NCBI GenBank assembly: GCA_030522415.1
Contig: CM060130.1
Span: 22,094,465 to 22,158,464 of the forward strand
Direction: 5' to 3'
Length of the DNA: 64,000 nt
Source of the DNA: Channallabes apus
Taxonomy: Eukaryota > Chordata > Actinopteri > Siluriformes > Clariidae
How positions within the stretch are numbered: the stretch's first letter is position 1; every line of letters starts with the position of its first letter. Positions 15,219-64,000 of the stretch are shown here, piece by piece. A model generated the notes under the pieces. That model was not told where the DNA came from, did not search any database, and saw only the letters and a program-made list of their open reading frames with translations. A program made the translations under genes and the position numbers.

Positions 15219-15220
<2 letters not shown>

Positions 15221-25572: not shown

Positions 25573-27490
25573 TTATTGAGTCCAGTCTCCAAATCTTTGT
25601 GGCGGCCTCTTCAGTCGTTGCGGCCTACCCTTCCTTTGGCCGTATACAGTCCCTGTCAAACTATGCGGCACCGTGCTACCTTCTTCCTCTCGTACGTCCT
25701 CTGTGCTCCGCTCTGTTATTATCATGCTGGAGTCATCCATTCGGGGCAGGCTGTCCGGCCCGGTGGAATCACTGGTTTCCTCGGTAAAGAGACAAGACAG
25801 ATCCAAGTCGAGTTCAGCCCCTTCAGTGTCCACGCTTGGAACAGGTACTTCCTGAGGTTGCCAGTCCTCCGAGTCTCTGAACACCCAGTTGTTCTCCAGG
25901 GGTTGCCGAGAATGATAGGGTTTGAGCTTGTCATGGTGAACGACCTTTACTTTAGTCCTCTGACTCTTCTGAATCCGGTACACTAAATCATCCAGAGTTC
26001 CAAGGATAAAATAAGGTCCCTCATAATTTGGAAGGAACTTCCTGATCTTGTTTTTCACTCGTTTGGTTCCTTTAACAAGGTACCACACAGCATCGCCAAC
26101 CTTGTAGCGTGTCCTGACTGCTCGTTTATCATACTGCTTTTTCGCCCGCTCCACTGATTGGCCTAGTGCGTCCCTTGCAATTTGGTGTGCCAATTCCAGC
26201 CTTTCTCTCATCTGAAGCACATATTGCGGAATTGATTCTATCGGGTTATCATGAGGTGGTTTCCCTGCAACAAGATCAATGGGCTCTGTTATCTCCCGGC
26301 CGAAAAGCATCATGTTTGGGGTGAATCCAGTAGAACTGTGTTTGGTTGCTCGGTATGCCATCACAGCGTAGGGAACCATAAGATCCCACTCCCAGTGACA
26401 TCGCTCAGAGGTTGTGGCCAGGATTTTCTGTATAGTAGCATTAAACCTCTCCACTTGGCCATCTGACTGCGGCCGAAAAGGTGTTGTGCGGGTCTTATCA
26501 ATGTCGAGCAGATCACACATGGTTTGAAAGACCTCCGATTCGAAGTTGGTGCCCTGGTCACTATGGAGGCTCAGTGGTGCTCCATAACGGCAGACCCATT
26601 CACCCACTATAATCCCCGCTACCGTCACAGCCTGGTCGTTGGGAAGAGGATACGCTTCCACCCACTTGGTGAAATAATCTTGCACTACAAGAATATAGTG
26701 ATTGAAGCGTTCTGTTTCATTCATGGGGCCCATTAGATCAACAGCAATTCTTTCCATAGGCGCACCTACTCGCACGGTACCCATAGGTGCCTGAGGCCTC
26801 TTTGAGGGTCGAGCCTTCGCAGCACAGCTAGTGCAGGTGCGGCACCAAAGTGAAACATGTTCTCGCATTTTGTACCAATAATATCTGGTTTGTAGCCGCG
26901 ACAGTGTTCGTTCCACTCCGAAATGTCCACCCACGGGCCCCTCATGCATCTGATGCAGGACACCATCTCTGAAGACAGCTGGCAGAACAATCTGGGGGTA
27001 AAACTCAGGACCCTCGTTCAGGTAAAAGCGTCGCACCAGAATGCTATTCTTAAGGTACAGCCTTTGCCACTGACTCCAGTAAGCTTTTGTTGCTGGCCCG
27101 TATGGCGACACGTCTTCCCAGGCAGGTCGCTCTTTGCTTTCCGTCATCCACCTCTGAATGGGAGCGATATCAGTATCAGCTGCTTGGGCAGCCCGCAATT
27201 CTTCCTCAGTCCACCCCGAGAATGCAGGAGCAGCGTAGGTGAGAACAGGCTGTACTACCCCCACTTGACAAAGCTCAGGGGATCTAGCGACGGATCCGTC
27301 ATTTACAGATTCAGCATTGACATCACACTGAACAGACTGGTGACGGAGCTGGGGGCTACTCGAGATGGAACTCTTGAGGTTGCATGGGCAAGTTGAACGA
27401 CATGGCCTCCGGGAGAGCACATCAGCATTCTCATGACAGCGCCCTGGGCGATGAACAACCTGGAAGTCATACTCCCCCAACTTCTCAACT
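25573..27490 (-). CDS. Gypsy pol: end of RNase H and integrase
   Basis: On the minus strand the meaningful part begins at the deletion junction near 27490 with EYDFQVVHRPG and ENADVLSRRPC, the end of an RNase H domain. It continues into integrase with an HHCC zinc-binding module (HQMHEGPVGGHFGVERTLSR, then WCRTCTSCAAK). The catalytic triad context is AVDLMGPM, LHSDQGTNF and PQSDGQVERFN. A C-terminal GPYFILGTLDDLVYRI module is followed by a stop at TAA (25575-25573). Integrase inserts the cDNA copy into host DNA, and all three acidic residues are present. The open frame extends upstream to 27681, but that part is out of frame with the real protein. Confidence 0.88.
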
Positions 27491-30107
27491 CCACCTGCCA
27501 GTATCCTGAGGCAAGGTCTAAGGTGCTGAACCACTTTGCAGCAGCAAGAGTATCTAGGGTGTCTTGGATCCTTGGAAGTGGGTAGGCATCCTTTATGGTG
27601 CGTTCGTTCAGGACCCGATAATCCACACATAATCTGTAAGTTTGGTCTTTTTTTCGCACCATAACGATTGGTGAGGCCCAACAGCTGTTACTTGGGGAGG
27701 CTAAACCAGCATCGAGATTCTGCTGGATCTGATCATCCGCACTCTGCTGTTTTTCGAATGCCATTCTACGGGGTTGTTGTTTCACAGGTGGACCAGGTTG
27801 GGTTCGAATGTCATGCTGGACCAGGTTGGTGCGTCCAAGGTCGGTGGGGCCAGTGGAAAACACATCACTGTTAGCACAAAGAAGTTCGGCCAGCTCACGC
27901 TGTTCTGCCTCCCTCAGGTCCGTTATACTCTCTGCATACAGCGGCTGTAAGTGATGGGGAACAGCAGTGAGGCATGTGTCAGATGGGGGCAGCTCAGCGG
28001 GGTGGGCCTGAACCACATCGGCTGGTTGGAGGATTCCAGCAATTACTCCCTTTTTCACTTTTACCACAGTAGTACCGGGGTTATACAGTCTGACGGGAAC
28101 ACGATTACTTGGCTGAGTACCGATTATAATTCGTGCCACCATCACCTGGTGTTTCTCCATGAAGCCCTTGGTTGGACTCAACACCATGTCGCCTTGTACT
28201 TCTTCTCGGAAGTGTGCGTTGCCTGGAACAATGTATTCACGCCCTGCCTCGAGGACAGTGGTGCGGGCTATGCGGACCACGTGCACGCGAGGTTTGTTCA
28301 TCGGGTTAAAATATGAAATTTGTTCCCCGAACAGTACAATTTTCTGTCTGCCAAAGTCAAGACGTGCCCGTGCTTGCTCCAAGAAGGGATGCCCCAGTAT
28401 GGCCTCAGTGCCCTCAGCTACATCTGCTACAATAAAGTTAACACTGACTGTTTGGGTTCCTACTTGAACTGGAACATCAACTTCCCCAAGGACACCGACA
28501 TTTATTGAACTTATTCCTTGCAGGGCCTGCACCGTTGATAGTTTGAGTGGGGGCCTTACATCGGCCTTGATGGACTCGTAACAGAGCCGAGGTAACACGC
28601 TCCGCCTGGCCCCACTGTCCAGCAGTGCACATACTTCCATGTCATATAGCAGCAGGTGGATGCACATTTCTGGCCCGCCTCCCTTAACTCTGAGGACAGT
28701 GGAAGCAGGCTGAGTCTCTGGAGGTAGGGAAAGTGCTGGAGTTTCATGTTCTAGGTTGAGCCTAGGAGACGGACAGTTTCGTTTCATATGACCAATGCCT
28801 CGGCAGTTGTGACAGATAATTTCCTCCCATTTAATTTTGTTTCTCCTGAATTTTTGTGATCGCTGTCTGAACTCTGCTTTTGAGTTTTTATGTTGCCACT
28901 CGTGGGTTAACTGCACTGAATTTCCCTCGTCACTCCCACCCTGGTCTGGACATTCACGTACCGTTGCTGTTCTGGTCTTCCGTTCCCCCGGTCGTATGGC
29001 AGATTGCATAAGCCGTGTTACACTCGTGGCTGTTCGGCGTGTGATGTCGTACCTGTGCGCGATCTCATAGGCGCGAGCCAAAGTGCGTGGACGCTCCTCC
29101 AACAGTCGTTGCACAATGTCGGCATCTCCCATAGCATTAGTGAACACTTCGACGCTAACAGAGTCCTGCTCCTTCTCAGAACGATCTGCATAAGCAATGG
29201 AAACTTTTTCATATATGTCGTCCCTTAGCACATGGAGCGGCTCATCAGCTCTGCGAACCCTTTGTCTTAGCTCAATACCAATAGCGGCCGCGTGTTCAGA
29301 CGAGGGACCATATGCAGCCTCCACTTCCTCTACAATGCGGGCGTAATCCCAACGACTAGATCTGGGGTTTTTATGGATCACAGCCCCCGCTGCACCTGTC
29401 AGACAAACCCTCAACTGTACAGTCTTTGTCCTTTCAGACCAGTGGTTGGCTCTGGCACAATCTTCAAAACGGTTCAGAAACTCTCTCCATGAAGTAGAAC
29501 CATCAAACTGACCTGGTCTCAATGTGGGAATTCTTTCTCTGTGGCCCCCGCACTCATCTCCACTGTCTGATGACAAATCACAGAATGTCTGTCGTAATTT
29601 CCTACCCCGTTGTCTGGGTTTAATAGGCTCTGGGAAACAACGTTCATCAGTACTAGAATAGACAGCATTTATATTACCCTCGTCCTCACGGAAGCTATAC
29701 TGAGTGGCACAGTCATTATGTTCACAGGGCTGGCGTTTCGATATGGGTGTCTCCTGAAACATCTGGTTAGCCGTTAACCCTTTGTATATTGATTGTGAGT
29801 AGTTTAAATTTACAGGAGTATGCTGCATATAGTTGTGTGTATCAATGCCACTATCGTGTGCATGCTCATCTTCCCTTCCACTAATAAATGGATTGTTTGA
29901 TTTTACTGTTTGCTGTGATGTGTGAGGCTCATAACAACATGTAGATCTGTTCATTGAAACTGATGCTGGACATGGAGTAGAAATGCATTTAAATGGATTG
30001 CTATTATTATCAGTCTTTAAAACTTGTGCATCCATTTCCTTTAGCCAGTAAACAAATGAAATATGAGTTCGTCTTTCATCCACCATCTTTGTTTTTCTCT
30101 CCGACAA
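27303..30107 (-). CDS. Gypsy Gag, protease and start of reverse transcriptase
   Basis: One frame starts MSERKTKMVDERRTHISFVY. The Gag capsid-like region includes LRPGQFDGSTSWREFLNRFE and YEIAHRYD. A zinc knuckle CHNCRGIGHMKRNC has CX2CX4HX4C spacing. The protease contains ALLDSGARRSVLP, with the DSG active site. Reverse transcriptase begins MVRKKDQTYRLCVDYRVLNE and reaches FSTLDLASGYWQVE, where a deletion near 27490 changes frame. The remaining residues down to 27303 are nonsense. The YxDD catalytic site is absent, so this copy cannot encode a functional polymerase, and any movement would have needed proteins from another copy. Part of the frame overlaps the integrase ORF because of the shift. 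Confidence 0.88.
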   Translation of the reverse strand: MSERKTKMVDERRTHISFVYWLKEMDAQVLKTDNNSNPFKCISTPCPASVSMNRSTCCYEPHTSQQTVKSNNPFISGREDEHAHDSGIDTHNYMQHTPVNLNYSQSIYKGLTANQMFQETPISKRQPCEHNDCATQYSFREDEGNINAVYSSTDERCFPEPIKPRQRGRKLRQTFCDLSSDSGDECGGHRERIPTLRPGQFDGSTSWREFLNRFEDCARANHWSERTKTVQLRVCLTGAAGAVIHKNPRSSRWDYARIVEEVEAAYGPSSEHAAAIGIELRQRVRRADEPLHVLRDDIYEKVSIAYADRSEKEQDSVSVEVFTNAMGDADIVQRLLEERPRTLARAYEIAHRYDITRRTATSVTRLMQSAIRPGERKTRTATVRECPDQGGSDEGNSVQLTHEWQHKNSKAEFRQRSQKFRRNKIKWEEIICHNCRGIGHMKRNCPSPRLNLEHETPALSLPPETQPASTVLRVKGGGPEMCIHLLLYDMEVCALLDSGARRSVLPRLCYESIKADVRPPLKLSTVQALQGISSINVGVLGEVDVPVQVGTQTVSVNFIVADVAEGTEAILGHPFLEQARARLDFGRQKIVLFGEQISYFNPMNKPRVHVVRIARTTVLEAGREYIVPGNAHFREEVQGDMVLSPTKGFMEKHQVMVARIIIGTQPSNRVPVRLYNPGTTVVKVKKGVIAGILQPADVVQAHPAELPPSDTCLTAVPHHLQPLYAESITDLREAEQRELAELLCANSDVFSTGPTDLGRTNLVQHDIRTQPGPPVKQQPRRMAFEKQQSADDQIQQNLDAGLASPSNSCWASPIVMVRKKDQTYRLCVDYRVLNERTIKDAYPLPRIQDTLDTLAAAKWFSTLDLASGYWQVELRSWGSMTSRLFIAQGAVMRMLMCSPGGHVVQLAHATSRVPSRVAPSSVTSLFSVMSMLNL

Positions 30108-30168
30108 AGTCTGGTTCTCTTTTTAACAGTTTAATTAGTCCGTACAACTCACCACGTGCGACGAGCAA

Positions 30169-32575: not shown

Positions 32576-32604
32576 AACAGTTAACTAATTAGTTTAGACA
32601 AACA

Positions 32605-32736
32605 GAGGAGAAGCCCAGAGAGCTGGAGACTCTTCAGAGACACATTCAGAGACTCACAGAGACTCACAGACTGAGGGAAGAAGTTCACCAGGAAACAGTG
32701 AGGAGTTTAATATATCAGAACCAGCAGCAGCTTTAG
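32605..32736 (+). pseudogene. Gene B GTPase exon, surviving C-terminal 43 codons
   Basis: The open segment EEKPRELETLQRHIQRLTET continues with HRLREEV and ends QNQQQL before TAG (32734-32736). It matches the C-terminal coiled coil of the gene C GTPase exon (EEKNRELETLKQKHSDLTET, then HSLCKEV). The G domain and most of the coiled coil are missing upstream, where the (ATT)n run now lies. The tail still reads without a stop, so the truncation may be recent or the copy may have been pasted by recombination. Confidence 0.75.
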
Positions 32737-34261: not shown

Positions 34262-34340
34262 GGCGGCACGTTAGCTTAGCACTGTCGCCGTGCACCTCCG
34301 GGGTCCGGGTTCGATTCCCGCCTTGGCTCTGTGTGCATTC
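34262..34340 (+). mobile_element. SINE head fragment
   Basis: GGCGGCACG, GCACCTCCGGGGTCCGGGTTCGATTCCC and CTCTGTGTGCAT segments match the head of the SINE at 21331. The rest is missing. Confidence 0.65.
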
Positions 34341-34951
34341 ACAAAGACTGTCAATTAGTACCATGAGAATAATAATAAAGGGTCCAAATCAATCACCTGA
34401 TGTAAACCCGATAGAAAAGATGTCCAGTCGACAGATTAGAACAGACTAGAACTGTCTAAGATCAGGTTAACGTCTTTATTCATGAAGAATTTAAAGCCGT
34501 CACTACAAACAAAGGCTTATAAATATCAGTTAGGGAGTTTAAAATGATTCCTTGTGCCATTCCATCTAATTGTACATTAATTAATTATTTTTTTATGTAT
34601 TGGAATATACTATATTTAGCTGTGTAGTTAGTTTAGTTAATATCAGTGTCAGTGGGTCTCATTTAAATGGTGTTTAATAATGAAAAGCGATGCTGAATAA
34701 TTGAATACTTGTTTCTCCGCACTGTAGACAGACAGACAGATATAAAGTCACATTAACAACAGCACATGAGTTAAACATGAATATAAACACGACACACTGT
34801 TCATGTTTTCTACACAGTTACAGTGTCAGTTGCATTACTTTAGTAGTAATAGTGACAACAGGACATAGTGTAAGCTAATTATTAACTATGTAGGTGAACT
34901 ATGAACAGGGACAGGGTGTGAGGGAGGCAAAGATCTCTCAGTGACTGTAAT

Positions 34952-34965
34952 GATAGTGAAAGTTC
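34952..34965 (+). promoter_or_regulatory. Imperfect interferon-response-like motif upstream of gene C
   Basis: GATAGTGAAAGTTC differs at one base from the GAAANNGAAA core. It lies about 100-190 bp before the 5' untranslated exon. The matching place upstream of gene D has a perfect core. Function is inferred. Confidence 0.35.
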
Positions 34966-35051
34966 CTGACTTTGACCAACAGGTGTGACGGAGCCGTTAG
35001 ACTTCATACAAATATTTTAGTTTCTCTGTGAAAAGCTAAAATATTGTTTAA

Positions 35052-35144
35052 CTGTAATGAGGTAAATAGTGAAGATGATCTGGTGTGAAATGTGGACAGA
35101 CTTCAGCTAAAGCAGCAGATATGTTTATATGAGGAACAGAAAAG
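35052..35144 (+). other. Gene C 5' untranslated exon (3' border supported)
   Basis: The donor GTAAGA at 35145 ends an exon whose sequence from CTGTAATGAGG onward is shared base for base with gene D (63657-63749). The true start is not known; 35052 is only where the shared block begins. It contains a short upstream ORF, ATG TTT ATA TGA (35121-35132), which could reduce translation of the main frame. Confidence 0.5.
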
Positions 35145-35308
35145 GTAAGAGGAGTTAGCATCATGCTAAAGTACATGTTAGTCACCAACCACTCAATAAC
35201 CTGTTAAACTAATCCTCCAAATACACCGTGGAATTGTGCTTTCTAACAGTGTGTTTGTGTGAGTTAAGTTGTTTAAAAGGATGACTCTCTCTTTCTGTGT
35301 GTGTTTAG

Positions 35309-35360
35309 GATTTTATTAGTTTGAACCGACAGTAAGAGATAAAGATGGCGACTGCAAACA
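35309..35360 (+). CDS. Gene C start exon
   Basis: The acceptor GTGTGTTTAG ends at 35308 and the donor GTAAGT begins at 35361. Coding starts at ATG 35345 and gives MATAN plus one base. The codon four positions upstream in the same frame is TAA, so translation cannot begin earlier in this exon. The exon and both neighbouring intron ends are repeated exactly at 63914-63965 (gene D). Confidence 0.8.
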
Positions 35361-38300
35361 GTAAGTTACATTTACAGAGATACATTTATCTGTATTATTT
35401 ACTGCAGATTAAACTAACCGTATGTGTGTGTGTGTGTGTGTGTTTCCTACACAGATGACTTTAAACTCATTGGTCCCGGTGATATAGAGGAGTATAATCA
35501 CTCTGCTGTGACTCTCTCGTGTCGTCTGTCTCCTGAAATCAGTGCTGTTAACATGGAGATCCGGTGGTTTAAGGAGACAGACTGTGTTTGTGTCTATAAG
35601 AACAGACAGGTGACAGAGGGGAGACGTTACGAGGACAGAGTGAGTCTGTTCACTCAGGAGCTGGAGAGAGGAAACGTCTCCTTACAGCTGAGAGACTGTA
35701 CAGTGTCAGATGGAGGACATTACCTGTGTCAGGTCACTGATGGAGACAGAACAGAGGAGATTACAGTAGGGATGGACAGTAAGTGTTCCTGAACTCCACA
35801 CTGTATAAACTCTACATCATCATCTGTGCTTCTCATCTCAGTAGATGAAACACACACTCAGTATTCAGTATGAGGTTCAGTATACAGGGTGCTAATGTGG
35901 ACTGGAGTTTATTTTAGTCCAATAAACAGTGAGTGTGTTTTTCACTCTGATACACACCTGCACAAGGGCCTAAAAGCAGCAGCTTGTACAAATACTAATT
36001 AAATAGTGATTGATAAGTGAATCACATGTTACTTTTCCTGCTAATCAGGGATTCGTTCAATATAACTTTACATCAGAGACATTTTTACATCAGAGAGGAA
36101 ATTTAATTACACACTAAATGTGGCCTTTAGATTGTTAGAGTTATTTGATATTTAATAGAACAGATAATAAATATAGTGCTGAGAAACCAAACACACACAT
36201 TGAGGTTAAAGTGAGACATACACTGGACTACTGACTAACCTCAACTAACCTCAACTATAAAGAGTAACTATTAAAAATGTAAAAATGTTAATTGGTCTGG
36301 ATAAGGGTGTCTGCCAAATGCCATAAATGTAAATGTCTGATGATTGAGATTTTTAGAGTAAGAATATCTGACTAGTGGTTAATAACAGGTGTATAACAGT
36401 CCAGAGAACACATTAGTTAGTCAGGTATCTGACTTGGCACACACTAATGCACTGTGTACACACTTCTCCACTTCTATACGGCTGTAAATTAATAACAGAG
36501 ACTAATAACAGGAGTTACAGCTTTTAGTGTTGGACTTGTGTTTTACATAAATCAGTCCACAAACTGATCCACAAGTTCCCTCAGCTCCTGATTCTGCATT
36601 GGCATCAGATCCTCTCCCTGATGAATAAGGTGGCGGCTTTGCTCTGTGGCAGAGAGAGAGACAAGGGCTAAGGAGTGAGGAATTGCTTCAATCCACCATT
36701 TCAAAAGATTAATATGATACAGCTCAGTGCTTTTGCACTTACCCGGCTGTTGCAGACGATAGTTCACTGGCTCGACTCGTTCCACAACGGTTAAGGGTCC
36801 TTACCAACGGGCAGGAACGTGAATGTAGCATTGAGGAGAAGCAGCAGTACGCGATCACCCACCTTAAATACGCGTGACTGAGCCGGCTGGTCGTAGGCGT
36901 GCTTCTTCTTCTCTTGTGCCTCTTGTGTGTGCCGTCCCATGATAGGGAGAACTTTGTTGATATTTGTTTGAAGTTCCTGTACAAACTCACTTACAAACCT
37001 GAACAGTGAGCGCTGCTCCTCAAAGGCTTCCTTGGCAAACATCACACTTTATTTTTGACATGAATGGCGTACCTTGGTCTGTAATTACTTCTTTGGGGGG
37101 GCTGAAAGGGTACGATTATGATAGGCAGTGGAATTAGCAGAGCGGGGGCGGGTTTAGCAGGTGCTGTACACTGACCGGTAGGACAGGTCTGACAGAAGTC
37201 ATGTACCTTGGCCTCCAAGTGGCGCAGTGGTAAAGTGCTCGTCCTATCATCCGGAGATCGCCGGTTCGAACCCCGGGTGATGCTGTTACCTCAAAAAAAA
37301 TCCCCAAAAAACATTTTTGAAATAAAATTCAAAAAAAGAAGTGGCGTACCTCTGCGTTGAGCCCCGGCCAGTGAAATCTGTACTTTATTTTCTCTATAAT
37401 GTTTTGCACGTCCCAAGGTGACCTCCAAAGGGTGTGAAATGTTCCAGGTGCATCACAGTGTGGATTTTAGCCTGTGGGACGACCTGAGATCACATTCAGA
37501 TTCACATTGTTTTGTATGATTATACATATAAGTTATTTTCTACAAAGAAATATAAGGCTGGCCGGAGCTGCGGGTCGTCAAAACACACTCTTACAAGTGA
37601 AGCGCAGTCTTACAAAGATTCTAAATATCTACAGTTGAACCTTGGATTACGAACATAATTGATGTTGGCTGTGGATTTGCCCGTGGCATTACAGTTAAAG
37701 CCTCGAACTCCATTATGGGAAATTATTGACTTTGGAAAAACTTGTAAAAGTAAAGATGTAAAATTGCGTCAGAGACAGAAGCGTTGTTACATGAAATTTG
37801 TCAGAGTGGAAGTTCTTTAGTCTTTAATAGTCGGGTCTGAGCTTTAGGCAGAGATCACTCATGTAAGTAACACACTGCACATAGCAGTCTCACTGGACTT
37901 TTTGATGTTTTTAACAATAATTTTCTCTGCACATCTAATGGCAACTAAATGAGCTGCTTATTCAGAGTTCAGTAGGAAACATCACCGGAAAGGGAACTAA
38001 TTAATGCTGTAATAATAACTCTAATAATAATTATTACTGCTGTAAGTAAATTTTTCCTGATACAGATAGAAATGTGAATGAACGTGGTGATGCTCAGCAT
38101 TTTCATTCGATATGACGCGTCTTATTCACCAGTTGATCACAGATGTGTGTTACTGCACCCAGTATTTAATTGTTTAATTATAAATTATTTATTATTCACT
38201 ATGTTGTTATATTAATATAAATATTAAACTTTTAGCTGAACATCTTTGAACTAAAAGCAAAGAATGAAGTTATTCTGTTTGTAAATCATAAGTTTTTCTC

Positions 38301-39894
38301 ATTATATTTTATCTAACATTACATTTCTCTCTCTGTTGTTCCACACGACACCTTCAGTACCGGTAAGTAAATAACTCGACTTCACACTAATGATAAACAC
38401 TGATATTTTATAAACTCATCACATGTATTAGATTTTAATTCAGGGATCAAATAAAACATAAAAACTATTTTCAGATGATGTTTATGTGAAGGACTCTGAT
38501 CAGTAAGTGAGATTCCACTTCCATCAGTCAGCTTCTTTCCCACAATGCACCTGTGTGTAACCCCACTGCACTGCAATAATGTAGACAGAGACGTTTACCA
38601 TGTCGAGTAAAAGACACAACACACATGTAACATATAACACACACCACTGCCAGACTCCATCAGAATCTCATACAGAATCATATAAGAATAAAAATATAAC
38701 ATTTCCCAGGATTCCTCTGGATGGAACAGTTGTCTATTCTGCAAGTGTCCAAGTAACATATCAGTATTTTTGTATTATTTTAATAAGCTGTGACTCATAA
38801 TTGTGTTCTTACTGAAACACAGAGTGACATGACATTTCCTGACACTTCACAATAAACATAAATCAGAGCTTTAACAGTGTTCAGTGCTTGTAGACAGAAT
38901 AATTGCCATCACTCGCTCTGCATAACAATCACACCATATTGTGAAAAAGCATTGAAGAGTTGACTCGGCCTAGCGTTTAGCCTCTTTAAGCTAACAGTAG
39001 TAAGTCATGTTAATGCACACAGCATAAAGACAACCTGACTGACCTGAGAACAGAAGTCCTTCACTTCATTTATAAAACTTCTATAATAGGAGAGAGGGAT
39101 TTAGGAGTGAAAGAGAGAAAAACAGAACGAGATCACACATCTTCCCAAGTCTACTGCGACATATCATATGCTGTCGTAACCAATATATAGACGAGGCCGT
39201 AGCAAAGCACATCATTCTGTTATCTGTTCAGTTTATTACATTGATAAATGTCTGTGTTTATAATTAAAGGAAGTGGGAATCTGATATTCTGTATATTCCT
39301 TTATGTACTACAATAACACATAGATATATTACAGAATATTTAACTATAGATATAAAATACACAGGGGGAAATGCACATATACTGACATACTGTATATTGG
39401 TAAATACATGCAGATATCAGAAAATAGTATTTTACAATAAATCACAAGATATTTCTGTTCCTTAAGGGGAACTAGCGGTATATTAGCACAATGCTACATT
39501 ATACAGATTTACTGTGTGTGATGACTGATTGTTGTCTAGTTTTCCTCTTTTTTATTAAGACACACATCAGCTGTGTTTTAACCAGAGTAACAGTTACTTT
39601 CACATTTTCACATGAAACAATTCACATTTATAATCATGTATTAAATCTTCACTCTCTATTATTTACTTTCACAGCCAAAGTTCGGTGAGTATAAAGTCTT
39701 TTCTCTGATAGTGATGTGTTGATGCTGCATGAATAATATATTTATTGTGCAGATGAAATAGATTGGACTGTGCTGTGTGTTCAGACTGCAATAGCACATA
39801 GATATATGAGCATCATGAGCATAGTGTAGTGAACACAACAGACTGTGATCGCTGGCAGAACATTCATCATGCTGTTTAGTTTATCATTAGTGTT

Positions 39895-39978
<84 letters not shown>

Positions 39979-42900
39979 CTGACCTACACACTGATACTGA
40001 GAGATAAAAAGCTGAAGGTTTTTGTTTGATTGTAATTTTATAGTAATAACTCCTTTATAAAGTTACTGAGACTGACTAATATTACTGTAGTGTTCACTGT
40101 CCGGCCTCCCAACAAGTCACACACACTAATATTTCATTTGATCACAAGTTGTGTTGATGGTGTGTAATGTGGTGGATAATTCCTGTGTATAAATGCTTCC
40201 TCATGCTCACAGAGTCCAGCGTATGTCCAGGACATCTGGGAAGAATAATGATGTATTGATGTAATAACCTGAACATTCAGTACATTTAATTAGATTATTT
40301 TTGTTCTGATTTGCCTCATTAACAAGTGGTTTTCTGATAGTCACACAGCTGTTTAGTCCCAATCCTGTGAGCTCTGTGATTTCTGCTGTCATTTATGTAA
40401 AGATTTCATTTCTTTCTTTTTTAATGATGCAATTTCTCCAAGTGTTTGATATCTGATCACTTTCACTTATGATTTTTTTTCAGATCATATTTTTTTTTCA
40501 TGAAGTTTACAGTTTTTTCTTTTTTGTCCAGGTAGTGTACTGTATATAACTTTAGTGAGAGAAGTGAGTTAGAGAGTCCACGCTAGATAATAGTGCATGA
40601 AAGAGATTATAACAGAATGTGAGTGAGTGATTCAGTAAATTTGTTTCTTACAGAGTTAATATGATAAAGCTAAAGACATTTCTGTTCCAAAATCAGCAGA
40701 GAAACAGAAGAGAGACAAACTAATGCAGGACAAAACGTATTTACTGAGAACAGACACAGAATGTTTATATCTAATACTATTCCATATAATACAGAGACAT
40801 TTACAACAATTACCAAAACATTTTTAGGAATCTAATCAAACTTTCTTTGTATTTTTGTCAGATCGTCAAATAAAAGACGTCTGGGTTCATCAGGTGAGTA
40901 AACTGTACTAAACTATTAATGTTCATAAATCTCTTACTGATACTAGCAGCTTAAGAACATGACAGTTAACAATTTACTGTGATTACTGATGTCATCATTA
41001 TTGATATGACTGTAAACAATTTGTTTAAACATAAACAAAATAAATCATGAAACAAGAAAAACAAGATAAATAAATTATAACCTTCACACTTATTGAAGTT
41101 CATCTGCAAACTTTGTCTTAAATGTAATTTATAGAGACATAAAAAGGTTTAATACATATTTAATTGAACATGAGGATCTGTGTAGAGACCCAACACCAGG
41201 AACAACATTAATTTACTTAAAACCATTTTATTAAAATCTGTTGGACAAATTTACTGTCACTTCAGAGAACAAATCCATGAGAAACTCTGTGTCTGAATTG
41301 TGTTGTGTGTTTTAATCACGGCTGACTGATGGTCATGAAAGTATAAGTCAGATAATAAACATTGTCATTAAAAATATATAAATGTCTGGGTCAGTTCACG
41401 TTCTTTCATAAGTATATTAATATATTGTGTTATTGTGTAAAAACACAATATATTCCAGCCAAATAATAATAATATTAACCACATCTAAACACTTGATTCT
41501 CCTGTAGAGGGGAGGATGTTTATCTCTCATCATGTTAGTGTATAGTGTTAGTAATATGTCACACACACACACACTTCATGTGTATTTAACACTTTATTTA
41601 CATACAGTATGGAGTCGGGTATAAAACCTTCACACTGATTTATTCTCTTTCACAGACTGACAGAAAATGGACAGAAGATGAGAGAATGAAAATGAAGATC
41701 TCGGCTCTACAGACTGGTGAGTGTGGAAGGAGCTACAAAAGTAAACACACCTGATCATGTGTTGTACAGTAAAGTGTTCAATAGTGAGATCTCCAGTAAA
41801 CATCTGAAACTCACAACCTTTATTTCCACACTCTCTATTATTATATTCTCTATTATAAACATTATTTAAATATTATAGAGAAAGCACACAGAAAGTGTTG
41901 CAAATTAGCTCAACAACGGAATATTTACAACTAATTATAACTAATAATAAATATTTAGATTAGAATTAACTGTAGCAGAATTAACATACAATTATCTGAT
42001 CGGTCCGTCTCCCGAGCAGATACTATAATTATTTATCAATTCTAAGAAAGGTTATTTCCTGGCCAAGGAAGGATAGCTTTCTTACTTTGCAGTACTAGCA
42101 GTAATTTACCATGTAACCCACGGATCAACAATTCAGTGGCTTTGGATTGTGAGCAGCACACAGAGACAATCTATTGTGAAAATAATGAGTTTAATAAAGG
42201 AGGCTATAGCTAACATATAACAACATTAAACAAACACATACATACAGGGTAAAGGACAGTAAGGAAGAAAGAAAAGAACAAAAGAATGGCAGCATTTCAC
42301 ATCAATTAACCACAACCTAATGAGAATCATCAAAGAATCAAGGTTCACCTTAAAGAGGGGCTCAAACTTAAACACGCATCTAAAGAGTTTTAAAGGATAC
42401 TTGCATTGGTCTTTGTTTCTGAAAAAGAGTCCTGATTCAGTAGACACGAGGGTGTAGATGATCGACCTCAAGGTGAGTGCTGGAGATTTGCCTCTGGTTC
42501 CTCGAGAGGGAGGAATAGTCCACAGCGAGTTGACAAAGTTACTTGAAGGTAAAACTGCCGAAGGTTAAACTAAAGAGATGAGTTTTTCAGAGTGTAGGAG
42601 AGTGTTCGTTTCAAAAGAAGAGATGTTTGAGCACCGAATAGCCTGGGTTAGGGACTTTTGATAGTGCCCTGACACACCCACCGTTTGGCCAATCAAAGGC
42701 ATGAATTTTAGCTGAAGAAACTTTCTTTGTCTCCTTCAATGGCCCATTGGAATTTTTACTGCTGGTCCAGAGGGTTGTTGCAGTTTATTTCAAAATACTG
42801 TAGAAAGTATATAATGCCTTTCGTGATCACATGGGATACATCATTGTTTGAGAAATATGGAGCAGATAATTTTGATACCAAGAAAGGCACCTTTAGGAGA

Positions 42901-45900
42901 TAGGAAAGCAGAGATACATTCATACACTCGAATATATGTAATTAGAGTCTAACTATGGTAAATAAAAGTTGTAACTAGTGTAATCAGATGAGGGAGCATA
43001 CACACAATGCACGTGTATACAGGATACATTTATAACTGTATAATCATGATATAAAATAGAGTAAATGTCCTTAGGTGTGTGCGTGATGTGTATTGCAAGT
43101 GTGGAGCCAGACGCCATGTCTGATTAGGCCGTTGGTGGCCGGCACAGAGGCCTCCTGCTAGTCTTTGGAATGTGTTTGATGTTGAGACTGGGGGAACTAA
43201 TCTATTTAGCCTCCTCGTAATAAGGATGGTGAACTCACTGGCAATAAACATCCATATAAATGTAGAATGTGGGTCCAGGTCTGTAATTCATATGCAAATG
43301 TCAAAGGCTAAAAGGGTCCAAACAATCATCTGTGATCCTAAGCAGACGCTACATTAGTGATATTCACTATACACACTTAACTTTTAATATCTGTAACTAT
43401 GAATTAATCTAAGTCACACGTTTTAAACTCAAGGCGCTGAGTCCAAACACACCTTAAATGGGATTCAGTGATTGATGCCGAATCCTGAAACACATCTGAA
43501 ACACATCACCCAGTGTACAGAGCAATAAAGACAGTCTGCTGGGGAAAAGAAAAGATGAGAGAGAGACAGGAGACTAAGTACATGTCAGTTCCTAACAGAG
43601 ACAGTCCTGTGTGAGTTCTCCATCAATCTCCTAATGTTAGATAGTTTTGAAATTTGGAAAAAAACTAAACATTTTTTATAAAACATCAACAAAGACAGCA
43701 TCAGTATAATTAATGTTATCACTTGATGTTTCAAACAGTTGTTTACTTTGTTCTTTTTTAAGACTCGATCCTACATTCAATGCCTAGTTTAATAGATGTT
43801 AATTACCAGAAAAATATATTTAAAAATAAATAGTTGTAGTTGATGGGCTGTTAAATAATGTTGAATAATGCTTACTGTAATGGGGTGCTCGTGTGGGGTT
43901 TGGAGAAGACATGGAGGCGGAGGTGATAGAGTGAAAAAGGGGTTTTTTAATAAAGGAACCAAAATGTGAACATGTACCAACAGGACTCAAACTGAACTAA
44001 CACACAGAGCTGAACCGAACACACGGACTAAACCAAACATGGAGCTAAACTAACAGACATGGAGCTAACCTAACACGCAGAGTAGACTAAACATAGAGTT
44101 AAACAAGACACAGGGCTAAAGCAAACACAGAGCTATATAAAACACAGAGCTAGACTAAACACAGAGCTAGATTCCACATAGAGCTAGACTAAACATAGAG
44201 CTAACCTAAACACAGAGCTAAACTAAACAGAATGAACCAAACACAGAATAACACAAACCAGGAGCAAGGGGAAATGGCATGACACCAAGAACACGAACTA
44301 AACACCCACTTAACATAACCGTATCCAAACAGATGCCCGACCCAGAACAAAGGAAACAAAAGTCTATTTAACTTGGTACAGATTAGGCTGCTAACCTCGA
44401 TCAGGTGTGTTCCCATTACCTGACCGAGGTGCACTCTGGGAAACGGAGTTCAAAACCAAACTGAAACATAACAAAAAACAAAATGGAGTCCTGAAGTATG
44501 GCGCCATCTGGTGTTCGACCGTGACACTTACATGTACTGGGTGTGATGTGAGTTTGACATCCTGCTCTAAAGCTGGTATTCTCACCCAGTGGGGCGTGGC
44601 TGTTGTACTGTTACATTAGAATATCAGAGTCTCGATGGACACATCATCAGATAGAGACAAATGTTTTGCCACTAGCTAGCTAATGTTTGGACACAGTTAC
44701 AAAATGGAGAACTTTATATAATAAAACTATGATGTGTGAGATAAACCTGTGCTAGTGAACGCTCCAAGACATGTGCTGTAATGTATTCAGTCACGTTAAA
44801 TACATTAATTGTGTATTTATAGTGGCAGGCAGTGTGTTGAATGTTCTGAAATCATGTCAAATGAAGCTAAAAAAACATCAAAGCTCAGAGACACTTAAAC
44901 ACAAAGCACCCAAGATGTGTTGGGAAGCCAAAAGAATATTTTCTAATGAAAAGGGTCGTGTTTCTGGTACAACAGAAGGTCATCACAATATTAACAGTGC
45001 AGTCAGAAGCGTTGTTGAAAGATAGTTATTTGGTTTCTGCTCATATAGATGGAGCTTGTTTTGTATAACGGTTAAGATTTGTGTAAGGAGTTAATGGGGA
45101 ACCAACTGCAAACACAATTCAGTCCATACCACTGTCTACTGACACCATGAGCAGAAGAATTGTTCTCATTACTGATGACATTGAATGTCAACTTGTGGAA
45201 AGAATAAAGACACGCCTATAATTTACCATACAGGGGGACAAGTTCACTAATCTTTGCAACGTCCCACCTAGTCTTGATCTCCTCATTTCCAAGCAAGTCC
45301 AGGTGTCTCACTAGTGGGAAATGGAATATTTATTTTAGTCGTTACAGCTGACGGCGGCAAAACACATTACAGTCTAATTTATTCCTTTATTTTTTTCCAT
45401 GTTATGCTTTTTGTTTATTGTGGGCCTTAAATTCCAAAAGTTTGAGAACCCCTGCTCTAAAGCATGTATTATACAGATATTAAAATTAAAGCCTTTAAAT
45501 ATTTCGCCAGTTTTAAACTGACCTACATTTAGGTATATAACATGTGATGATATTATAATAAGTAAGAGTGTGAAGTACCTCCCGGGTTTTACTATAATAA
45601 AATCAATCAGTCAATGTTTCTAATTAATTAAATTGCTCACTTTTGTTTTTCTATTAAATAATTACAAATTGCAATTTTGACTTCTGTACTTCTGTAACTG
45701 ATGACTGATTATGATCACATTAATCATTCAGTTCACTCTCCTGCTTAATATTTTAAAGAACTGAAGGGAGCATTAAAATCACTGGAACATAAAGACCAAC
45801 AGCTGGAGGATTATAAAAGACAAATAGAGAATAAAGATACAGAACTGAGAAACAGAGAGAAAATCATCGAGGAGAAAGACGCACAACTGGAGAATATGAA

Positions 45901-48634
45901 CAAACTGCTGAGTGAGAAAGAAACACAGCTGAAGAACACAGATAAAGAACTGGAAACCAGTAAAGACAAACTGGAGACACTGGGACAGGAGCTGCAGGAC
46001 GAGAAGAGACAACTAGAGGAGATGATGATCGTACTGGAGCAACAGAAAACTGAGTTATCAGAAAAAAACAAACAGCTTGAAGAGACAGAGAGACGTGTAA
46101 CTGAGAGAGAGACACAGCTAATGGAGAGAGACAAACAGCTTCAGGAGAAAGACAAATGCCTAACAGAAAATCAACAAATGCTTCAGATGAAGGACAAGAC
46201 ACTGGAAGAGAAGGACACACTGCTCAGAGAGGTGAAAGAAGAACTGGAGAAAACAAAGAGGACATTAGAGGAGAATCAGACACAGCTGAAAGACAAAGAG
46301 AGACAACTGGAGAGTGTGGAGAATGAACTGGAATCCAGTAAAAACAAACTAACTGAACGAGACAAACAGCTTCAGGAGAAAGACAGACTTCTAGAGGAGA
46401 AAACAAAGCAGCTGCAGGAACAGACAGATCCAGAATCATCAGCCGCCATCAGGAGAAGAAACAGCAAGGAAGCGTTACCTCCAACTAGTGAGGAATTTGT
46501 TATTTGTATTAATTAAAATATGTTTTTTTTTTTATATCAGTACAACTAGTGAATCTACACCTAATAAATCATATGTAAGGACATGAAATATACTGTAATG
46601 ATACTTAATGCTGCAACTCTTCAGCTACTGTAAGGACGTGTAATTTAAACAGTGAAAGTGGTGAATTATAGTGTATAAAACATTACTTTAATGAGATTCT
46701 CTGTCTAACTCTACCTTCTGAAGAACGTCTCTCTCATTCTGACTGGTTCTGATGTTTCCTAGTGAGTGGAGAGACTCAGGACTCAGCAGCACCAATCAGG
46801 AGAAGAAACAGTATGGAGGGAATTCGTCCTTCATGTAAGTGATTAAAAATATAATTGTCTAAATCTGCTTATTCTGTCTCTTCATAGACATCTACCCCTA
46901 AACTAGTGTTGAGTTACACACTGAACACTAACTTTAATTAGATTACAGTGAAAAGATCAATATTGTAACTCTGGCATTAAACAGTATCAGTAACTAATAA
47001 TGAGAAATAGAAGCACATGTTGTCCTTCACCTGCCATGATTGGCGTCTGTCATGTGACAGGGCAAAGATCACTCATGGGTGGGGCTTCCAATAACACAAA
47101 TGTTTAATTCTAGCTCAACACATGTAATTGCTGTTTAAAAAAACTATTTGTTTGTGGAATTTAAATTTGTTTCACATAAAGGCTTAGGCTTATCTGATTT
47201 AATCATTATTGTCCTACAGTCCACCACCAGAGAACAACATAATCACCACAATGCAGTAAGTAAGTGATTCTGTATTAAATTATTTATTCTTGTTCATTTT
47301 CAGTGGGCGGAGAATCGTCTAGTCCACATTCTCCAGTCTCGGTTACTGTAGCAGAACTGAGGCTGGTGCTGCTGGGGAGGACGAGGTCTGGGAAGAGTGC
47401 AGCAGGAAACACCATCCTGAGCAGAGAGGAGAGGAACCAGGCTGCTACATCTACAGCTACATCTACATCCACCCAGCAGAGTGAGAGCACACAGGGGGAG
47501 GTGGCTGGGAGGAAGGTGACTGTGGTGGACACTCCTGACTGGTTCTCTCCTGGACACACTCTGGAGAAGCTGAGACAGGATGTGGGACTCTGTGTCCATC
47601 TGTCTGCTCCAGGACCCCACGCCTTCCTCCTGGTCATACCTGTAAAGCAGCCTACAGGAGAGGAGAGAGGGATGCTGGAGAAAATGGAGGAGATTTTTGG
47701 AGAGAGATGTTGGAGAAACACCATGATCATATTCAGTGTTACTGATGAACTTCAGAAGAAGAACATTGAGGAGTTTATCCAATCAGGAGACCAGGAGTTC
47801 CAGAGACTTGTGGAGAAATGTGGGAACAGGTTTCACTGTGTCAACATTAAGGAGAGTGGACATGGTTCTCAGGTCTCAGAGCTGCTGGAGAAGATAGAGA
47901 AGATGGTGGAAAGAAGCAGAGAGAAATTCTACAGCAGTGAGATCTACCTGGAGACAGAATCTCAGATAAGAGTGTTGGAGACTAAGATCCTGAAGGAAAG
48001 AGAAAAGAAAAGGATGAGAGTGGAGATGGAGGTGAAAGAAAAACTAGATAAGGAGGTGCAGGACTCTCTGAGAAAGATAGATGGAGTGATCCAGGAGCAT
48101 GAAGGAGACATCAGACAACTGAATGACCGAACAAGTGAACTGGAGAGAAAGATGAAAGATGAGAGAGATGAAGAGAAAAAGAGAGAACTTGAGAGGGAGT
48201 TAAAGCGAGAGGTAGAGCGAAGGACAGAAATGGAAGAAAAGGTGAAGAAACTAAAAGAAAAGAGAGAGAGGGAGAGGAGAGAGATGGAGGAGAGGCACCA
48301 ACAGGAGATGGAGAAGATCAGGGAGGTGTATGAAGGAGAGGTCAGGATGGAGACAGAGAGAAACCTCATGAAGATCATCCTGCCTGAACTCCAGAGAAAC
48401 ATTTTGGTCACAAAAACAAAGATGCAGGAAGAGTTCAGCAGACAGATGGAGGAGAAGAACAGAGAGCTGGAGACTCTTAAACAGAAACATTCAGATCTCA
48501 CAGAGACTCACAGTCTGTGTAAAGAGGTTTATGGGAAAACTGTGAGCAGCTCAGAGTCAGAGAGAGCAGCTGTAACAGGAGAGGTGTCGAAGGGAATCTT
48601 TCAGACATTGACCGACTATTTTGTCACTGGATAA
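35345..48634 (+). CDS. Gene C: immunoglobulin-V / coiled-coil / AIG1 GTPase fusion gene
   Basis: Proposed coding exons are 35345-35360, 35455-35778, 38358-38362, 39675-39684, 40862-40893, 41656-41716, 45759-46487, 46763-46834 and 47304-48634. All borders are AG/GT, phases match at every junction, and the lengths sum to 2580 nt (859 codons plus stop) with no internal stop. Predicted layout: residues 1-5 MATAN; V-set immunoglobulin domain about 8-113; linker 114-149; coiled coil 150-392; cassette with RRRNS 393-416; AIG1 G domain about 430-640 and a second coiled coil to the end. The start ATG has A at -3 and an in-frame TAA 12 nt upstream (35333-35335), so this transcript has no signal peptide. 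No membrane segment is seen. GIMAP family members are immune GTPases. What an immunoglobulin V domain does in this context is unknown. The two micro-exons are the weakest part of the model. Confidence 0.75.
35455..35778 (+). CDS. Gene C immunoglobulin V-set exon
   Basis: A 324-nt exon in phase 1-1, as is usual for immunoglobulin domains, between TTTCCTACACAG and GTAAGTG. It encodes NDFKLIGPGDIEEYNHSAVT, then LSC (first Cys), EIRWFKETD (core Trp), RVSLFTQELERGNVSLQLRD, and SDGGHYLCQV, the DxGxYxC pattern with the second Cys. The sequence is closest in style to the V domains of butyrophilin/MOG-like fish proteins. It has both core cysteines but no upstream signal peptide, so a disulfide may not form if it stays in the cytosol. 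A (TG)n run at about 35422-35442 lies just before the acceptor. Confidence 0.88.
35779..36295. other. Gene C intron, nothing else recognised
   Basis: The first part of the 2.6-kb intron between the immunoglobulin exon and the first micro-exon. AT-rich, with no coding signal. Confidence 0.6.
36296..36345 (+). mobile_element. SINE 3' tail fragment
   Basis: CTGGATAAGGGTGTCTGCCAAATGCCATAAATGTAAATG-type tail, common to fish V-SINE-like repeats. A second copy of the core is at about 59850-59880. Confidence 0.6.
36552..37100 (-). mobile_element. Ty3/gypsy integrase fragment (different family)
   Basis: The minus strand holds KEVITDQGTPFMSK (the second integrase Asp region, near 37060-37090), then degraded YDQPAQSRVFKVGDRVLLLL and ERVEPVNYRLQQPGKCKSTE plus LYHINLLKWW. 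This is the C-terminal part of a gypsy-type polyprotein, inserted in a gene C intron. Frames are broken and the part with the last catalytic Glu is deleted. It is distinct from the element at 24500. Confidence 0.75.
37206..37290 (+). mobile_element. tRNA-derived SINE fragment (second family)
   Basis: AAGTGGCGCAGTGGTAAAGT resembles a tRNA A-box region and CCGGTTCGAACCCCGG a T-arm/B-box. It is followed by A-rich sequence with AAAAAATCCCC. It is not a functional tRNA, because no proper acceptor stem closes it. Confidence 0.65.
38358..38362 (+). CDS. Gene C 5-nt micro-exon (proposed)
   Basis: TACCG lies between GACACCTTCAG and GTAAGTAAATAAC. It converts the phase-1 end of the immunoglobulin exon to phase 0, adding Ile-Pro. 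Without it and the next micro-exon the downstream exons do not join in frame. The gene B copy at 13153 keeps the same donor. It needs transcript evidence. Confidence 0.45.
39268..39468 (+). repeat. 201-bp segment identical to gene B 13366-13566
   Basis: See the gene B entry. In gene C it lies inside the intron between the two micro-exons. Confidence 0.9.
39675..39684 (+). CDS. Gene C 10-nt micro-exon (proposed)
   Basis: CCAAAGTTCG lies between TTTACTTTCACAG and GTGAGTAT. It enters in phase 0 and leaves in phase 1, adding Pro-Lys-Phe and the first base of Asp. Good splice signals and exact phase fit support it, but its size makes it uncertain. Confidence 0.5.
39896..39977 (+). repeat. (CA)n microsatellite, long
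   Basis: About 40 uninterrupted CA units within a gene C intron. Confidence 0.97.
40862..40893 (+). CDS. Gene C 32-nt exon
   Basis: Between TTTTTGTCAG and GTGAGTAA, encoding DRQIKDVWVHQ, phase 1 to 0. A decayed gene B counterpart is at 14141-14157. Confidence 0.6.
41656..41716 (+). CDS. Gene C 61-nt exon opening the coiled coil
   Basis: Between TTCTCTTTCACAG and GTGAGTGT, encoding TDRKWTEDERMKMKISALQT and leaving with G in phase 1. That G joins AA at 45759 to give Glu. The gene B copy at 15322-15382 has the same 61-nt length. Confidence 0.75.
41717..43875. other. Gene C intron DNA, partly repeat-like, no gene seen
   Basis: About 42000-43380 has a GTTTAATAAAGG motif and lower AT content than the surroundings and looks like inserted repeat DNA, possibly an old LTR. 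I could not define its ends. No protein motif was found. Confidence 0.4.
43876..44526 (-). mobile_element. LTR-like element of family L (651 bp)
   Basis: Bounded by TGTAATGGGGTGC and TTCGACCGTGACA, with CTTAC duplicated at 43871-43875 and 44527-44531. On the minus strand a TTTATTAAAAAACC polyadenylation-like site lies near the end, giving orientation. The middle (about 43990-44240) is a degenerate tandem of ACACAGAGCTAAACTAA-like units. It also has the family CTGACCGAGGTGCACTCTGG block. It lies within the intron before the gene C coiled-coil exon. Confidence 0.75.
44573..45454 (+). mobile_element. hAT (Charlie-type) element, internally deleted
   Basis: The right end TTTGAGAACCCCTG and a degraded left end CTGGTATTCTCACCC are flanked by an 8-bp duplication, CTCTAAAG (44565-44572 and 45455-45462). 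Inside, on the plus strand near 45140-45215, STDTMSRRIVLITDDIECQL followed by VERIK matches hAT transposases of the ZBED/Charlie type. Upstream at 44851-45025 is KLKKHQSSETLKHKAPKM and related degraded sequence. Much of the transposase is missing, so it is inactive. Confidence 0.75.
45759..46487 (+). CDS. Gene C coiled-coil exon
   Basis: A 729-nt exon, phase 1-1, between TAATATTTTAAAG and GTGAGG. It encodes about 243 residues of almost uninterrupted charged heptad-type sequence, with repeated motifs such as RDKQLQEKD (twice), NKLLSEKETQLKNTDKELE, TLGQELQDEKRQLEEM and LEEKDTLLREVKEELEKTKR. Near its end AAIRRRNSKEALPPT echoes the APIRRRNSMEGIRPS of the following cassette exon. No transmembrane segment is present. 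It likely drives self-association between the immunoglobulin and GTPase parts. The gene B homologue at 21314 is broken. Confidence 0.85.
46763..46834 (+). CDS. Gene C 24-codon cassette exon
   Basis: 72 nt, phase 1-1, between TGATGTTTCCTAG and GTAAGTGA. The joining codon is A+TG (Met), then SGETQDSAAPIRRRNSMEGI and RPS, ending T+TG (Leu) into the GTPase exon. RRNS fits a basophilic (PKA-like) phosphorylation consensus. Because it is phase-symmetric it could be skipped without breaking the frame. A gene A copy is at 2716-2787. Confidence 0.78.
47304..48634 (+). CDS. Gene C terminal exon: AIG1/GIMAP-family GTPase with coiled coil
   Basis: Follows TCATTTTCAG and runs 443 codons to TAA (48632-48634). 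The P-loop reads GRTRSGKS (exon residues 25-32) followed by AAGNTILS. The fourth position, Gly in gene A and usual in the family, is Arg. The G3 motif DTPDWF is intact at 76-81. LLVIPVKQPTGEERGMLEKM and IIFSVTDELQKKN are G-domain core segments. From about residue 215 a long Glu/Lys/Arg coiled coil includes REMEERHQQEMEKIREVYEG. The GKS lysine is kept, so nucleotide binding is not excluded, but the Arg could alter the loop. The last 40 residues (TVSSSESERAAVTGEVSKGI onward) differ from gene A and end TDYFVTG, with no membrane anchor. Confidence 0.92.
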
Positions 48635-48859
48635 CAGAGTTTATAAAACCACAGACACTCAAACAGTCTGAAATAAAGTCTTTCAGCCAATGATTGTGGA
48701 CTGGGACAAAAATAAATAAATCAGCCCTGGCATTTTTGCTCCAGGCAGCTGAACACTACAGTAGAAGAATTGGTCTAGATGGACATCACCCATGTACAGA
48801 ACATGTCAGATCATTTTACTATCCTGGAAAAGCGTGTTTTTTGTTTGTTTGTTTCTTTG

Positions 48860-49040
48860 TTTGACTCAGTCTGCTTGAAGAGATTAATGAGAAAACTGTG
48901 AAAAAACTGTGAGAAGCAGTTCTGAGCCAAAGAGAGCAGCTGTAACCGGAGAGGCATCGAAGGGAATTTCTCAGAAATTTAAAGAATTCTTTCACTGAAT
49001 AACAGAGTTTATAAAGCCGCAGACACTCAACCAGAGACAG
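48860..49040 (+). pseudogene. Duplicated copy of the gene C C-terminus and 3' flank
   Basis: GAGAGCAGCTGTAACCGGAG and TCGAAGGGAATTTCTCAG, followed by AACAGAGTTTATAAAGCCGC, repeat the end of the GTPase exon and the sequence just after its stop (48530-48665). Stops break the frame. This is a short local tandem duplication of the 3' end, or the leftover of another GTPase exon. Confidence 0.7.
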
Positions 49041-63538: not shown

Positions 63539-63550
63539 GAAAGTGAAAGT
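63539..63550 (+). promoter_or_regulatory. Interferon-response-like element upstream of gene D
   Basis: GAAAGTGAAAGT fits the GAAANNGAAA core recognised by interferon regulatory factors and ISGF3. It lies about 20 bp after the last GC box and about 110 bp before the block shared with gene C. The position suits an interferon-inducible promoter. Function is inferred. Confidence 0.55.
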
Positions 63551-63656: not shown

Positions 63657-63749
63657 CTGTAATGAGGTAAATAGTGAAGATGATCTGGTGTGAAATGTGG
63701 ACAGACTTCAGCTAAAGCAGCAGATATGTTTATATGAGGAACAGAAAAG
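63657..63749 (+). other. Gene D 5' untranslated exon
   Basis: Identical to gene C 35052-35144, with donor GTAAGA at 63750 and the same four-codon upstream ORF. Confidence 0.55.
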
Positions 63750-63913
63750 GTAAGAGGAGTTAGCATCATGCTAAAGTACATGTTAGTCACCAACCACTCA
63801 ATAACCTGTTAAACTAATCCTCCAAATACACCGTGGAATTGTGCTTTCTAACAGTGTGTTTGTGTGAGTTAAGTTGTTTAAAAGGATGACTCTCTCTTTC
63901 TGTGTGTGTTTAG

Positions 63914-63965: not shown

Positions 63966-64000
63966 GTAAGTTACATTTACAGAGATACATTTATCTGTAT

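Follow-up and report, generated by a model that had tools for sequence, protein, structure and literature searches.

The window, i.e., the whole 64,000-nucleotide stretch of Channallabes apus DNA analysed here, carries on its forward strand a gene whose model joins an immunoglobulin V-set domain, a long coiled coil and an AIG1/GIMAP GTPase domain in one protein. The original prediction had described nine exons with matching phases, 2580 nt in total and free of internal stops, and the model could be rebuilt accordingly, with 859 residues, a terminal stop only, GT-AG borders at all eight introns and agreeing phases across all eight junctions. The gene is composed of the following features.

35309..35344, forward strand: 5' UTR part of the first coding exon, preceded by an acceptor AG at 35307-35308
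35333-35335, forward strand: in-frame TAA in the same exon, 12 bases 5' of the ATG, which closes the frame
35345..35360, forward strand: exon 1, with the start ATG and MATAN, without a signal peptide; several relatives begin MATASN or MAAARN
35455..35778, forward strand: exon 2, the whole butyrophilin-type V-set domain
38358..38362, forward strand: exon 3, a tentative 5-nt microexon; the AG, the 5-nt spacing and GTAAGT are kept in a decayed copy
39675..39684, forward strand: exon 4, a tentative 10-nt microexon, among five splice-filter candidates
40862..40893, forward strand: exon 5, linker DRQIKDVWVHQ, from the relatives' alignment and a decayed copy at 14137-14163
41656..41716, forward strand: exon 6, TDRKWTEDERMKMKISALQT, where the long helix begins; its linker motif is common in relatives
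45759..46487, forward strand: exon 7, long coiled coil of 243 codons, from the heptad score
46763..46834, forward strand: exon 8, short linker SGETQDSAAPIRRRNSMEGIRPS, with an 87.7% identical copy at 2686-2799, in front of the other AIG1 exon
47304..48634, forward strand: exon 9, AIG1/GIMAP GTPase domain, C-terminal helical tail and stop, from Pfam, GIMAP7 and motifs
48672..48677, forward strand: first AATAAA past the stop codon

Exons 1, 2, 5, 6, 7, 8 and 9 are backed by relatives or by copies or pieces in the window, and copies or pieces of exons 5, 6, 7, 8 and 9 are present elsewhere in the window. In the alignment, the Tachysurus protein P0002 reads KDFWVYQRDRKWTEDERKKM where window exons 5-6 read KDVWVHQTDRKWTEDERMKM; at the exon 5 position P0002 has DKDFWVYQ and P0007 has RHVCVYQ, and MPPKFE of Garra P0041 corresponds to IPPKFD of the window. 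Exons 3 and 4 appear to be the least secure of the nine. A simple splice filter for candidate exons of 3-30 nt, applied to a 5083-nt stretch, returned five candidates including exon 4; exon 3 is absent from this list, its acceptor falling slightly below the pyrimidine threshold, and no exon 4 was identified in the decayed copy within the window. As the two microexons amount to 15 nt, the frame survives the loss of both, and the fusion is thus independent of these two exons.

The 344 nt at 35052-35395, including exon 1 and the ATG, recur with 100% identity at 63657-64000, i.e., in the last 344 nt of the window, where a second ATG lies at 63950. The next gene copy seems to start at this right edge, and it would stem either from a tandem duplication of very recent date or from a duplication in the assembly. 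An ISRE-like GAAAGTGAAAGT at 63539-63550, some 400 bases 5' of the ATG in this second copy, is the sole match in the window, with 0.64 expected by chance; a simple pattern for interferon-type elements gave no match 5' of the gene in 34301-35345. Two further features of the window are related to the gene.

13065-15413, 21798-21988 and 32596-32705: decayed gene copy with the order kept (around exon 3, exons 5 and 6, parts of exon 7, tail of exon 9)
2716-4534: AIG1 paralog (3.2-kb) with its own exon 8; 93% DNA identity over 1231 nt in the exon 9 stretch

At about 13.1 kb the decayed copy retains the 5-nt exon 3 with its acceptor AG and GTAAGT donor. A Gypsy-type retroelement lies inside the decayed copy (25573-30122, minus strand), an exon 8 fragment at 8015-8059 falls outside the order of that copy, and a partial second copy of the exon 9 tail (48903-49034, 82% identical) is located just 3' of the gene. 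Within the window, neither the decayed copy nor the sequence that precedes the AIG1 paralog yielded a V exon; the upstream part of the paralog, with any V and coiled coil, may lie beyond the left edge, so it is not callable as V-less.

The V-set match of the window model reaches 47.4 bits against a Pfam cut-off of 26. The domain matches butyrophilin/MOG, its nearest solved relatives are cell-surface proteins, and the other immunoglobulin models in the Pfam list fall on the same region. Up to E 1, the window model has no Pfam match to B30.2 or to a C-like second immunoglobulin domain, and its matches include no NACHT or LRR either. The pair of cysteines that forms a disulfide in secreted V domains is widely kept in the 70 relatives that carry both V-set and AIG1 (first cysteine in 64/70, second in 70/70), as is the sequon GN(V/I)SL, present in 49/70 of them and in 4/4 FIIND proteins. 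The C' strand region (exon 2) contains a CxC motif with its cysteines at model residues 49 and 51, of which the first is found in 69 and the second in 60 of the 70 relatives; a role in metal binding or redox is possible.

The original prediction spoke of an antigen-receptor-type fold tethered to a GTPase. The fusion is supported, but the wording suggests a surface receptor, and no means of leaving the cytosol was found: there is the in-frame TAA, and the model lacks a leader and a transmembrane-like segment other than the GTPase core strand. The first V strand lies at model residues 9-11, with about eight residues before it. No hydrophobic leader was found in the window model, whose N-terminal 8-residue hydropathy maximum is 0.42, and hydropathy gave no transmembrane-like segment apart from the GTPase core strand, the AIG1 stretch VGLCVHLSAPGPHAFLLVI being the strongest 19-residue hydrophobic stretch of the model (1.58); these signal and transmembrane calls come from crude hydropathy and not from a trained predictor. 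Clarias P0033 reads DFISLNLQKEIKMATASNEFK where the window would translate as DFISLNRQ-stop-EIKMATAN. The V domain starts 1-12 residues after the protein start in 46/70 relatives; five of the others start inside V, two have 13-20 and 17 have more than 20 residues before V, and the leaderless status therefore does not cover these three groups. In several relatives with more than 20 residues before V, the extra part resembles translated upstream or intron sequence. N-terminal hydropathy of 2.0 or above was recorded in five of the 70 (P0056, P0074, P0081, P0094 and P0178), most of which resemble, by eye, translated upstream or intron sequence. In 56/70 relatives hydrophobicity peaks at the AIG1 core strand, and P0175 has a hydrophobic tail at the C-terminus. 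The TAA, the hydropathy, the short starts and the FIIND and GTPase partners point to a V domain that lacks a signal peptide and would reside in the cytosol.

The coiled coil predicted behind the V domain and its linker spans model residues 144-393, for which the heptad score is 0.520 versus at most 0.293 in 300 shuffles. The linker motif was found in 50 of the 70 V+AIG1 relatives by a strict pattern, which misses all seven clupeid rows, Umbra, Chanos and 11 others, and in 52 by a loose one, which matched beside the real motif at least once (P0045); it is also present in 4/4 V+FIIND-CARD proteins. Several relatives align with the window across the V/linker/coiled-coil junctions.

The AIG1 domain scores 161.7 bits against a Pfam cut-off of 27 (E 2e-47), and the G domain matches GIMAP2/5/7, with an E of 8.8e-32 for GIMAP7 (3zjc). 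Its P-loop GRTRSGKS is intact, fitting the G1 pattern GxxxxGK[ST], and DTPDWF is also present. A conserved box between G3 and G4 is a mark of the AIG1/GIMAP family; it reads LSAPGPHAFL at residue 516 of the window model, and the pattern is shared by 64/70 relatives. The G4 guanine-specificity motif has the form TKxD/RKxD, and SVTDEL stands at the equivalent position in the window. By the pattern GxxxxGK[ST], the P-loop is intact in 30, degenerate in 34 and not found in six of the 70 relatives; a narrower pattern gave 30, 32 and eight, respectively, for the same proteins. It is intact in nine catfish proteins (not found in two), in 9/9 from electric fishes, in 11 from characins (21 degenerate, three not found) and in one from cypriniforms (five degenerate); in clupeids six are degenerate and one was not found, and it is degenerate in both Umbra and Chanos. 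GTPase activity throughout the family is not supported, the P-loop being degenerate in 34 and not found in six. With the P-loop intact in the window and degenerate in many relatives, the window's protein may plausibly switch with nucleotides, but this is not a general property.

Taken together, three protein searches with the first 160-175 residues as key gave at least 178 distinct proteins (the first found 127, of which 120 were listed); they reach only relatives that share short exact words. The original claim of a single gene for V domain, coiled coil and AIG1 GTPase is supported, as the gene model that unites them recurs in relatives. Searching fish proteins for V-set and AIG1 in one sequence gave, among the matches listed, at least 70 proteins from at least 29 species of seven orders. 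A Pfam re-scan of 60 of the 70 recovered both domains in 60/60 (50/50, then 10/10), and for the other 10 they are given by precomputed annotation. The species comprise seven Siluriformes, nine Characiformes, two Gymnotiformes, five Cypriniformes, four Clupeiformes, one Gonorynchiformes (Chanos) and one Esociformes (Umbra). Umbra was placed in Euteleosteomorpha by taxonomy look-up and the other species presumably belong to Otomorpha; the fusion, if it had a single origin, is therefore as old as the split between the two.

V precedes AIG1 in 68/70 of these proteins, and such a bias in order speaks against an origin of the 68 by random merging; the two exceptions with AIG1 first, P0083 and P0178, are probably merged neighbouring genes. 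The reading of the fusion as a chance event was rejected, since 70 relatives have both domains with V first in 68. Channel catfish is represented by the V-AIG1 protein P0070; in some species the fusion is present in several copies, and more than one V match was obtained in 7/70 V+AIG1 proteins. As far as seen, the V-AIG1 relatives are automatic predictions, with names of the trichohyalin-, golgin- or interaptin-like kind among others.

The same type of V domain occurs on other effectors. Four characin proteins among the matches listed (P0069, P0085, P0098 and P0113) carry V followed by FIIND, UPA and CARD in that order, with no matches to NACHT or LRR. Of the four, P0069 alone combines a complete V with a short start; the first-strand stretch is missing from P0085, and the starts of P0098 and P0113 lie within V. 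In Electrophorus P0111, V occurs together with CARD in a prediction containing an additional, unrelated piece, and zebrafish P0140 is a V-coiled coil protein with a short start and without AIG1. Tandem V domains without AIG1 are found in the cyprinid-like P0017 and P0018, whose contigs of 1892 and 1761 bases, with frames of 571 and 547 residues, we read as transcript assemblies. Tachysurus vachellii P0122 has four tandem V domains and the C-terminus VEMSKCS; read-through of the V exon donor in the window (35779-35792) gives SKCS-stop, so that both end alike in SKCS.

When paralogs of one species are compared, conservation is lower in V than in AIG1 for 79 of the 88 usable pairs; this comparison drew on 38 proteins from seven species and on 88 of the 95 pairs that these could form, with part of the listed Colossoma, Brachyhypopomus and Prochilodus proteins. 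Mean entropy is highest in the N-terminal A-A' stretch (1.88 bits), followed by the CDR3-like (1.04), CDR1-like (0.65) and C'-C'' (0.51) regions, as calculated from 55 of the 70 proteins (the 15 left out include all clupeid, Umbra and Chanos rows) with loop borders placed by eye. An antigen-receptor-like hypervariable V is not supported, because the CDR-like loops are conserved and the peak lies at A-A'. The diversity of A-A' would fit either recognition via the N-terminal edge or relaxed constraint there.

The explanation that we favour and consider probable is a tandemly duplicating cytosolic family of fishes with sensing by a leaderless V domain and output by a GIMAP domain; such a protein would be a receptor or adaptor whose immune effector can be exchanged. 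Sequence or modelling shows the fusion, its spread, the exchange of effectors, the V fold and, for the window's model, the missing signal peptide and transmembrane-like segment; oligomerisation, GTP-driven assembly, ligand sensing and a role in immunity are inferred. FIIND-UPA-CARD and GTPase domains work in the cytosol, and we infer the location of the protein from this type of effector together with the absence of a leader. The leaderless butyrophilin-type V domain would be the N-terminal binding module with its partner in the cytosol, the short linker and the long coiled coil would multimerise the protein, and the C-terminal AIG1/GIMAP domain would serve as the output. Binding of a ligand by V might then nucleate assembly. 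GIMAP2 forms septin-like oligomers; where the P-loop is intact, as in catfish and electric fish, the domain could bind GTP and form septin-like oligomers or scaffolds on membranes, and where it has decayed, it could act as a nucleotide-independent assembly module. The characin V-FIIND-UPA-CARD proteins would couple similar recognition to the inflammasome.

The chief alternative holds that V is a homotypic or heterotypic assembly module and not a sensor, so that V-V contacts among V-coiled coil, tandem V, V-AIG1 and V-FIIND-CARD proteins build a cytosolic scaffold whose trigger lies elsewhere. It would account for CDR-like loops that are conserved across paralogs, for the proteins with more than one V (7/70 of the V+AIG1 set, four V in P0122) and for the zebrafish V-coiled coil protein without AIG1, but the lower conservation of V than of AIG1 in 79/88 pairs suggests changing partners, and we hold this alternative to be unlikely, though deserving of serious attention. 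Entry into the secretory pathway, whether through a signal that escaped recognition or by an unconventional route, would make V luminal or extracellular; we regard it as improbable. The widely kept disulfide cysteines and GN(V/I)SL sequon fit a secretory history or location, and the solved structures nearest to V are cell-surface proteins; against this stand the in-frame TAA and missing hydrophobic leader in the window, the V domain 1-12 residues from the start in 46/70 and the fusion to FIIND-UPA-CARD and GTPase domains, which are cytosolic by established knowledge.

Two further alternatives concern the gene itself. One is that adjacent V and GIMAP genes in tandem arrays have been joined computationally only. 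Against it, V comes first in 68/70 across seven orders, the stretch between V and coiled coil is conserved (50/70), the phases agree at 8/8 junctions, and the decayed copy keeps exons 5 and 6, pieces of exon 7 and the tail of exon 9 in the gene's order. Mergers of this kind do occur, as P0083 and P0178 with AIG1 first probably illustrate, several other predictions hold transposon pieces (e.g., P0157 and P0100), and no cDNA record of a V-AIG1 protein was seen among the relatives; even so, we give a merger at this locus very little credence. A short V-only protein could be the main product and the long form a minor one if the exon 2 donor were read through to the stop at 35790-35792. The frame indeed runs on to GMDSKCS-stop, an AATAAA follows at 35921 and P0122 has a similar end, but exon 2 has a GTAAGT donor, and the coding exons beyond it, 2.2 kb in all, have remained open, which leaves this product a highly improbable main form.

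Beyond the window's gene, the cytosolic sensing that we favour could be part of a bony-fish cytosolic receptor system, in which one leaderless butyrophilin-type V cassette is combined with interchangeable effectors (GIMAP-type GTPase, FIIND-UPA-CARD or coiled coil alone); the system would have expanded through tandem arrays, and its V end would be changing faster than its effector end. We propose this tentatively, at slightly less than an even chance. The known butyrophilin-type V domains are extracellular modules, and both GIMAP GTPases and FIIND-CARD proteins act within the cell. A conserved family with such a V on such effectors would mean intracellular recognition or assembly by V in fishes and, if the receptor system is real, a fold of the antigen-receptor type would do the recognising for innate defence within cells. 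Such a family would also explain many trichohyalin-, golgin- and interaptin-like entries in catfishes and characins as misnamed, probably immune, proteins. The binding partner of an intracellular V could be tested directly, since both channel catfish (V-AIG1, P0070) and zebrafish (V-coiled coil, P0140) have relatives.

In human GIMAP2, GIMAP5 and GIMAP7 the GTPase domain is not preceded by an N-terminal V and a long coiled coil as it is in the window's protein, and the P-loop, a feature of GIMAP/AIG1 GTPases, is degenerate in 34/70 relatives of the window gene. Butyrophilins have a signal peptide, a transmembrane segment, and a C-like second immunoglobulin domain and/or B30.2. Compared with butyrophilin/BTNL/MOG V domains, the window model has neither signal peptide nor transmembrane-like segment nor a B30.2 match, and it has the CxC in the C' strand region. 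CARD8 and NLRP1 have the domain order FIIND-UPA-CARD, which is the order of the characin V-FIIND-UPA-CARD proteins (relatives, not the window's gene), but NLRP1 contains NACHT-LRR where the characin proteins contain V.

By title and abstract, no paper found in the open-access literature describes a V-set domain joined to AIG1 or to FIIND in fish, subscription journals and preprints being largely outside this search. The original view that the V-AIG1 joining was not known is thus upheld as to its description, but not as to the sequences, which are already in public protein sets as automatic predictions; the fusion looks like an undescribed family, as far as the literature search reaches. What is known are the domains and the idea of modular cytosolic immune proteins; what is new is a V domain in a place where none was found described. 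GTPase IMAP member 8 is expanded in anchovy, and the available text of that report does not mention an immunoglobulin domain on it (PMC13403563). The snail AIG proteins, according to the available text (PMC7053062), have DD-CARD or other domains before AIG1 and coiled coil, and resemble the window's protein in the accessory N-terminal domains and coiled coils on AIG1; they differ in that no immunoglobulin domain is seen there, the word 'immunoglobulin' occurring 0 times in the main text. In comparison with the fish NLR-C receptors with B30.2, as presented in the available text (PMC12436146), the putative recognition domain of the window's protein is the N-terminal V and its model has no NACHT/LRR matches, but both would be cytosolic protein families that have expanded in fishes and in which a recognition domain is coupled to immune effectors.
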